Position numbers and translations under genes: made by a program
Notes under the pieces: generated by a model
Databases searched by the model: none
What the model saw: only the letters and a program-made list of their open reading frames with translations
What the model was told of the DNA's origin: nothing
Assembly: GCA_946699065.1 (NCBI GenBank)
Contig: CAMPDV010000375.1
Location: 124,001 to 188,000 of the forward strand
Direction: 5' to 3'
Source: Loxodes magnus
Lineage: Eukaryota > Ciliophora > Karyorelictea > Loxodida > Loxodidae
DNA length: 64,000 nucleotides
In this document: positions 1 to 64,000 of the stretch, one piece after another
Layout of the letters: each line of letters begins with the position of its first letter
Numbering within the stretch: the stretch's first letter is position 1

Positions 1-3000
1 ACGTCCCATAGTCTCACCGTATAATCATCACTTCCCGAAACGATGAACTCTGAATCACTGGATATAGCCACAGCAGATACATAACTAGTGAGACCACTCA
101 TGGTCTTACAGGTACCTGTCTTGACGTCCCATAGTCTCACCGTCTTATCATAACTTCCCGAAACGATGAACTCTGAATCACTGGATATAGCCACAGATAA
201 TACATAACTAGTGTGACCACTCATGGTCTTACAGGTACCTGTCTTGACGTCCCATAGTCTCACCGTATAATCTCTACTTCCCGAAACGATGAACTCTGAA
301 TCACTGGATATAGCCACAGATCATACATAACTAGTGTGACCACTCATGGTCTTACAGGTACCTGTCTTGACGTCCCATAGTCTCACCGTATAATCTCTAC
401 TTCCCGAAACGATGAACTCTGAATCACTGGATATAGCCACAGATCATACATAACTAGTGTGACCACTCATGGTCTTACAGGTACCTGTCTTGACGTCCCA
501 TAGTCTCACCGTCTAATCTCTACTTCCCGAAACGATGAACTCTGAATCACTGGATATAGCCACAGCATATACAGAACTAGTGTGACCACTCATGGTCTTA
601 CAGGTACCTGTCTTGACGTCCCATAGTCTCACCGTCTAATCATAACTTCCCGAAACGATGAACTCTGAATCACTGGATATAGCCACAGCAGATACATAAC
701 TAGTGAGACCACTCATGGTCTTACAGGTACCTGTCTTGACGTCCCATAGTCTCACCGTATAATCATAACTTCCCGAAACGATGAACTCTGAATCACTGGA
801 TATAGCCACAGCAGATACATAACTAGTGAGACCACTCATGGTCTTACAGGTACCTGTCTTGACGTCCCATAGTCTCACCGTCTAATCTGCACTTCCCGAA
901 ACGATGAACTCTGAATCACTGGATATAGCCACAGCAGATACATAACTAGTGAGACCACTCATGGTCTTACAGGTACCTGTCTTGACGTCCCATAGTCTCA
1001 CCGTCTAATCTGCACTTCCCGATACGATGAACTCTGAATCACAGGATATAGCCACAGCATATACAGAACTAGTGTGACCACTCATGGTCTTACAGGTACC
1101 TGTCTTGACGTCCCATAGTCTCACCGTATAATCATCACTTCCCGAAACGATGAACTCTGAATCACTGGATATAGCCACAGCATATACAGAACTAGTGTGA
1201 CCACTCATGGTCTTACAGGTACCTGTCTTGACGTCCCATAGTCTCACCGTCTAATCTGCACTTCCCGATACGATGAACTCTGAATCACTGGATATAGCCA
1301 CAGCATATACATAAAAAGTATGACCACTCATGGTCTTACAGGTACCTGTCTTGACGTCCCATAGTCTCACCGTCTTATCATCACTTCCCGAAACGATGAA
1401 CTCTGAATCACTGGATATAGCCACAGCATATACAGAACTAGTGTGACCACTCATGGTCTTACAGGTACCTGTCTTGACGTTCCATAGTCTCACCGTCTTA
1501 TCATTACTTCACGATACGATGAACTCTGAATCACTGGATATAGCCACAGCAGATACATAACTAGTGTGACCACTCATGGTCTTACAAGTACCTGTCTTGA
1601 CGTCCCATAGTCTCACCGTCTTATCATCACTTCCCGAAACGATGAACTCTGAATCACTGGATATAGCCACAGCATATACATAACTAGTGTGACCACTCAT
1701 GGTCTTACAGGTACCTGTCTTGACGTCCCATAGTCTCACCGTATAATCTCTACTTCCCGAAACGATGAACTCTGAATCACTGGATATAGCCACAGATCAT
1801 ACATAACTAGTGTGACCACTCATGGTCTTACAGGTACCTGTCTTGACGTCCCATAGTCTCACCGTATAATCTCTACTTCCCGAAACGATGAACTCTGAAT
1901 CACTGGATATAGCCACAGATCATACATAACTAGTGTGACCACTCATGGTCTTACAAGTACCTGTCTTGACGTCCCATAGTCTCACCGTCTTATCATCACT
2001 TCCCGAAACGATGAACTCTGAATCACTGGATATAGCCACAGCATATACATAACTAGTGTGACCACTCATGGTCTTACAGGTACCTGTCTTGACGTCCCAT
2101 AGTCTCACCGTCTTATCATCACTTCCCGATACGATGAACTCTGAATCACTGGATATAGCCACAGCATATACATAACTAGTGTGACCACTCATGGTCTTAC
2201 AGGTACCTGTCTTGACGTCCCATAGTCTCACCGTATAATCATAACTTCCCGAAACGATGAACTCTGAATCACTGGATATAGCCACAGCAGATACATAACT
2301 AGTGAGACCACTCATGGTCTTACAGGTACCTGTCTTGACGTCCCATAGTCTCACCGTATAATCATAACTTCCCGATACGATGAACTCTGAATCACTGGAT
2401 ATAGCCACAGCAGATACATAACTAGTGAGACCACTCATGGTCTTACAGGTACCTGTCTTGACGTCCCATAGTCTCACCGTCTAATCTGCACTTCCCGATA
2501 CGATGAACTCTGAATCACAGGATATAGCCACAGCATATACAGAACTAGTGTGACCACTCATGGTCTTACAGGTACCTGTCTTGACGTCCCATAGTCTCAC
2601 CGTATAATCATCACTTCCCGAAACGATGAACTCTGAATCACTGGATATAGCCACAGCATATACAGAACTAGTGTGACCACTCATGGTCTTACAGGTACCT
2701 GTCTTGACGTCCCATAGTCTCACCGTCTAATCTGCACTTCCCGATACGATGAACTCTGAATCACTGGATATAGCCACAGCATATACATAAAAAGTATGAC
2801 CACTCATGGTCTTACAGGTACCTGTCTTGACGTCCCATAGTCTCACCGTCTTATCATCACTTCCCGAAACGATGAACTCTGAATCACTGGATATAGCCAC
2901 AGCATATACAGAACTAGTGTGACCACTCATGGTCTTACAGGTACCTGTCTTGACGTTCCATAGTCTCACCGTCTTATCATTACTTCCCGATACGATGAAC

Positions 3001-64000: not shown

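Follow-up and report, generated by a model that had tools for sequence, protein, structure and literature searches.

Tandem WD40 repeats are known from the HNWD sensors of Podospora (HET-D, HET-E and HET-R), in which WD40 codons 7, 9, 25 and 27 are strongly positively selected and flank codons 8 and 26, which are under purifying selection (PMC1805685). The variable WD40 positions of Podospora have also been listed as 10, 11, 12, 14, 30, 32 and 39, and stops within a repeat in one strain were taken as indicating a disrupted protein (both PMC12222747). Tandem units of another kind are found in the LRR genes of Tetrahymena, which contain tandem 90-bp exons subject to ectopic recombination; those of T. 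thermophila have between 1 and 51 units each (PMC6564038).

The locus described here combines WD40 repeats with in-frame TAG and TGA, and codes that reassign these codons form the second part of its background. In karyorelict ciliates (table 27) UAG is read as glutamine. Reading of UGA as tryptophan has been described for the same group (PMC11441545), and for Amoebophrya ex K. veneficum UAG as glutamine and UGA as tryptophan have been proposed (PMC6394959). Blastocrithidia reads UGA as tryptophan and UAG as glutamate (PMC12153298). A search of open-licence papers found none describing protist WD40 arrays that contain in-frame stops.

The window is a single array of WD40 blades

The window, meaning the whole 64,000-base stretch that was analysed, is a single tandem array with a period of 123 bp and 519.9 copies, which occupies positions 1..64000 on the minus strand and continues past both window ends. 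Division at a conserved anchor yielded 506 regular units, each exactly 123 bp long, and nine irregular pieces; the window ends of 101 and 131 bases stand outside this count, the longer of them including one further whole unit. The minus-strand unit is a 41-residue WD40 blade, and a two-unit peptide matched the Pfam WD40 family PF00400 over two stretches at 83.8 bits (cut-off 27). Codons are numbered from TGG (W) as codon 1, so that codons 22, 40 and 36 of an earlier note on this DNA, which gave the unit no name, are codons 19, 37 and 33 here. The 506 regular units comprise 215 distinct sequences and, with stops counted as residues, 76 combinations of alleles at codons 17, 19, 35 and 37.

Lag identity among the regular units, used to look for a seven-unit periodicity, gave best lags of 1, 15, 173 and 105, not 7. 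A run of 33 units occurs twice with zero differences, at 44711-48769 and 58119-62177, at a separation of 13,408 bp. Each copy holds seven TAG and five TGA, and the identical runs are a recent duplication within the array. The array fills the whole window, in which no tRNA, no NACHT or HET domain and no Rfam match at gathering thresholds was found. A 32-base pattern of the array had zero exact matches in viral contigs, no phage protein matched the array, and relatives in the viral and genome collections reached at most 58% identity.

Variable codons coincide in spacing with those of Podospora

Amino-acid entropy is highest at codons 35, 37, 19 and 17, in that order. When the register was matched to Podospora by spacing, the HNWD pairs 7/9 and 25/27 fell on the array pairs 17/19 and 35/37, which have the same spacing and flank V18 and D36. 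The chance of obtaining exactly these four of 41 codons is 1e-5, or about 4e-4 over 41 free registers, the latter applying because matching by spacing leaves the register free. Agreement with the second Podospora list is partial. By spacing its positions become array codons 15, 16, 17, 19, 35, 37 and 3, of which two (15 and 3) vary only synonymously in the array, whereas array codons 2, 18 and 20 are variable yet lie outside the list. The array thus has the HNWD-type combination of internally conserved repeats with diversity at ligand-facing codons, these being matched by spacing.

TAG and TGA are common alleles at two of these codons

Both common stops lie at codons that rank among the four most variable at the amino-acid level. 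Among the 506 regular units, codon 19 is TAT in 263, TCT in 136, TGA in 86 and TTA in 21, and codon 37 is TAT in 216, AAG in 146, TAG in 138 and AAT in 6 (minus-strand examples are TGA at 321..323 and TAG at 513..515). The earlier note had described TAG and TGA as common alleles at two hypervariable codons, and this holds at 138/506 and 86/506 units. Its count of eight TAG and six TGA in the first 30 units was reproduced exactly on the regular units, and its extrapolation to more than 200 stops in the window is borne out by the 224 at codons 19 and 37 together. At least one stop is present in 207 of the 506 units, and under the standard code just 8 of 457 seven-unit stretches of consecutive regular units would be stop-free.

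The further statement that stops are confined to these two codons stood for those 224 and failed at glycine codon 33, normally GGA, which had been thought to stay open and which reads TGA in 2/506 units (minus strand, 1509..1511 and 22103..22105, the second within the seven-unit stretch modelled below). In-frame TAA, of which none had been noticed before, is absent from all 506 regular units. Codons 17, 19, 35 and 37 hold 28% of the one-step opportunities for a stop under uniform rates, or 8.6% under the array's own mutation spectrum, and the probability that both common stop alleles would lie at those four codons is 0.078 or 0.0074, respectively. The location of the stops is therefore suggestive but not decisive by itself.

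Stop alleles are mixed among unit backgrounds to the same degree as sense alleles. At codon 37 background diversity was 3.96 for TAG (48 backgrounds), 3.98 for TAT (59) and 3.63 for AAG (44), and at codon 19 it was 4.22 for TGA (28 backgrounds), 4.26 for TAT (87), 3.84 for TCT (49) and 3.60 for TTA (12). Units with TGA19 or TAG37 were not enriched in replacement changes elsewhere in the unit, with a mean of 0.417 in 206 such units against 0.533 in the 300 others (p 0.15). TTA19 occurs in essentially one context (20/21 units) and TGA19 in five, so that the sense allele TTA seems to have come from TGA, a direction that agrees with G-to-T as the most frequent change in the array. TGA19 is paired with TCT20 in 86/86 units, while TAT19 and TCT19 are paired with GCT20 in 398/399; given this linkage, TGA19-TCT20 is a compound allele of several bases.

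Signs of constraint in the WD40 frame

Outside six variable codons, selected after inspection of the data, alleles comprised 17 synonymous and 17 replacement changes and 1 stop, where the opportunities were 73:231:11 (p 0.001). Inside the six codons the same classes numbered 1, 20 and 2, and synonymous versus replacement alleles differed between inside and outside (Fisher p 0.0004), although the scarcity of synonymous alleles inside is non-significant alone (p 0.24). Weighted by the mutation spectrum, the synonymous excess over all types was significant in the WD40 frame alone (p 0.0017, against non-significant values in the other five frames); when only types with more than two copies were taken, p was also 0.045 in one antisense frame. 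The result varies with the codons removed, at p 0.0097 for the four matched to Podospora, 0.00075 for eight, and a non-significant 0.11 for none.

Types in more than two copies numbered 11 synonymous to 7 replacement (p 0.0016), from which it appears that constraint acted while the common alleles were circulating. Nucleotide types in one or two copies were near neutral, at 6 synonymous, 10 replacement and 2 stop (p 0.17); this tally shows two stops against one in the allele tally because the double change of TGG1 to TTA was entered as two nucleotide changes. The commonest change outside the variable codons, read on the minus strand, is G-to-T, with 11 of 36 types; C-to-A has 4, and the imbalance hints at a strand bias in mutation.

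Seven frame changes as assembled, with indels that do not recur

As assembled, the frame changes seven times along the array, at six units with indels and at one scrambled patch, and a seventh indel site has a net change of zero (all on the minus strand). The patch, at 3699..4243, consists of 545 bp of scrambled array fragments with many internal joints and makes up two of the nine irregular pieces; it may be low-quality assembly. Single-base deletions lie in the units at 24293..24414 and, within a G run, at 51353..51474, and a 2-bp deletion lies in that at 32287..32407. Insertions of 2 bp are present at 41510..41634 and 51598..51722, and one of 1 bp, in a C run, at 44587..44710. The net-zero site comprises two units with four 1-bp indels (48770..49015), which are either compensating events or local base-calling errors.

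None of the indel lengths is a multiple of three. With the patch left out, none of the seven indel sites recurs in another unit, against 42 of 59 substitution types (p 0.0004). If the indels are real, they have been excluded where stops have not. Should they instead reflect assembly errors, only the stops and the patch interrupt the frame, and for a neutral indel share of 1 in 9 or 1 in 16 the probability of finding no indel among the 42 recurring types is 0.007 or 0.067, respectively. Either way the evidence leans towards sense codons.

With TAA as the sole stop, an open stretch of 6,816 aa spans 3941..24388 and another of 4,223 aa spans 51330..63998, where it reaches the window end, both on the minus strand and mostly in the WD40 frame. 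The same code yields 37 open frames of at least 400 aa in the window, including one of 5,729 aa on the plus strand. Since frames other than that of the WD40 blade are also long, openness is weak evidence, and long open frames were set aside as evidence of coding.

Candidate amino acids for TAG and TGA

Residues at the equivalent positions were taken from 415 distinct blades at 78 loci of relatives in bacterial and archaeal records and viral contigs. K, Q, Y and N are the commonest residues at position 37 of these blades, Q having the highest log-odds, and the array has K, Y, N and TAG at this codon; glutamate is found there at 7-8% and tryptophan at about 0.3%. This profile would fit a reading of TAG as glutamine. 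At position 19 tryptophan accounts for 11-13% and ranks third to fifth, behind R, T and, depending on the weighting, N and Y, while glutamine occurs in 7/415; TGA as tryptophan is plausible only. Residue pairing in the relatives adds no support for either value. Coupling of W19 with S20 is absent from them, and so the TGA19-S20 pairing of the array does not argue for tryptophan; Q37 pairs most with D35, and TAG37 mostly has A, R or Y at codon 35. The two TGA at Gly33 do not fit tryptophan as judged from the relatives' profile. No in-frame stop was present in 969 fuzzy matches to relatives' blades, and these consequently provide no control distribution. If the two codons are read as amino acids, glutamine for TAG and tryptophan for TGA are the most likely values.

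A structure was predicted for the seven consecutive units at 21710..22570 (minus strand), which contain four TGA19 and four TAG37, with TGA as W and TAG as Q. The resulting model is a predicted seven-bladed propeller with a pLDDT of 96.1 and a pTM of 0.92, and the fold matches of this prediction are WD40 propellers (5yzv, 7big and 2ymu). In the first modelled blade, residue 17 precedes and residue 19 lies inside the strand formed by residues 18-23, with residues 35-37 situated after strand 29-34 and before strand 38-43. Because single surface residues barely affect such a prediction, the good model is no test of the code.

Alternative explanations

We lean, with caution, towards a reading in which TAG and TGA encode amino acids in this organism and the window is part of a giant, hypervariable array of WD40 recognition blades. 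On that view the array probably forms the sensor portion of one recognition gene or of several clustered ones, and we infer that it is expressed, that it functions in recognition and that its stops are read as sense with the amino-acid values given above. The earlier note had raised the sense reading and named as its main rival a pseudogene in which unit exchange had spread the stops. The footprint in the WD40 frame, the mixing of stop alleles, the non-recurring indels and the relatives' profile speak for the sense reading; the seven frame changes, TGA at Gly33 and the lack of TAA count against it. Footprint and non-recurring indels weaken the rival as well, and we regard it as unlikely although it retains real weight. 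In this account the code is standard and amplification turned a WD40 sensor gene into a non-coding array; the footprint would be inherited from earlier coding, and the stops would have risen by unit exchange. The frame changes and the scrambled patch would be expected of such a decayed satellite, as would a stop in 207/506 units and rare variants close to neutrality, and under uniform rates the placement of the stops at the four codons by chance has a probability of 0.078. WRAP-like proteins with propellers disrupted by frameshifts or in-frame stops have been described (PMC9218822). Recombination between TAT and AAG within codon 37 could have produced TAG, but AAT, the reciprocal product, has only 6 copies against 138. 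Against decay stand the 11:7 ratio among types in more than two copies (p 0.0016) and the recurrence of stops but not of indels, each resting on small counts.

Two further explanations were weighed. A store of silent donor blades, in which the untranslated array would supply an expressed standard-code gene by gene conversion and owe its footprint to that gene, appears improbable. In Podospora, active and pseudogene loci have been proposed to exchange WD repeats (PMC1805685), and the shuffled state of the array, with its 215 distinct units and 76 four-codon combinations, also speaks for a donor store; however, an expressed standard-code gene cannot supply TAG at 27% and TGA at 17%, and heavy exchange should dilute both. 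No partner gene is present in the window, though the window is too narrow for such a search. Bypass after transcription, whether by A-to-I editing of UAG and UGA to UGG or by ribosomal readthrough, is very improbable. A single A-to-G change turns either stop into TGG, while TAA, which is absent, needs two, and editing of UAG to UGG has been named for Fusarium (PMC5496914). Editing would nevertheless place tryptophan at position 37, where relatives have it at about 0.3%. The abstract of PMC11156358 opens by describing editing in fungi as favouring U at -1 and frequently affecting UAG and UAA; UGA is not named there, and UAA is absent from the array. Leaky passage through hundreds of stops makes readthrough implausible.

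If TAG and TGA are indeed sense codons here, unequal exchange and conversion would keep the blade body uniform while shuffling its variants, selection would diversify the ligand-facing residues, and the two codons would be ordinary members of the codon set at those positions. More tentatively, and with doubt prevailing, the former stops of a recoded organism may join the residue set at diversified contact positions of a giant WD40 recognition repertoire and widen the reach of single-step codon changes. Single-step paths between the alleles observed run AAG-TAG-TAT at codon 37 and TGA-TTA at codon 19. Such a process, if true, would link the reassignment of stop codons with the way recognition receptors diversify. 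An array of this kind would be fragmented if annotated under the standard code, and similar arrays may therefore be overlooked in other recoded genomes.

Comparison with known systems

Cyanobacterial WRAP-type WD40 propellers (Npun_R6612) are likewise composed of amplified, near-identical blades, and Npun_R6612 is encoded in the standard code. The top sequence match among solved structures is 2ymu, a highly repetitive propeller that ranks seventh by fold with 47% identity in the fold alignment. Npun_R6612 has 14 blades (PMC9218822), against at least 506 units in the array. The LRR genes of Tetrahymena share with the array the amplification of recognition-type units, but their units are LRR rather than WD40 and are separated by introns. 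Loxodes genomes are rich in tandem repeats (PMC11441545), a feature in common with the array. In the papers cited, karyorelicts, Amoebophrya and Blastocrithidia all use UAA as sense too, whereas the array has no TAA in 506 units; this absence is a weak test, because just 17 of the 73 possible synonymous changes outside the variable codons occur at all.

The Podospora sensors likewise have near-identical WD40 units, concerted evolution and diversity focused at matching blade positions. Stops there marked a disrupted protein in one strain, whereas in the array they are common alleles. The Podospora sensors carry about 10 or 11 repeats and the array at least 506 units, and so, if the favoured reading is true, this would be a WD40 array with some fifty times the unit number of the fungal sensors.
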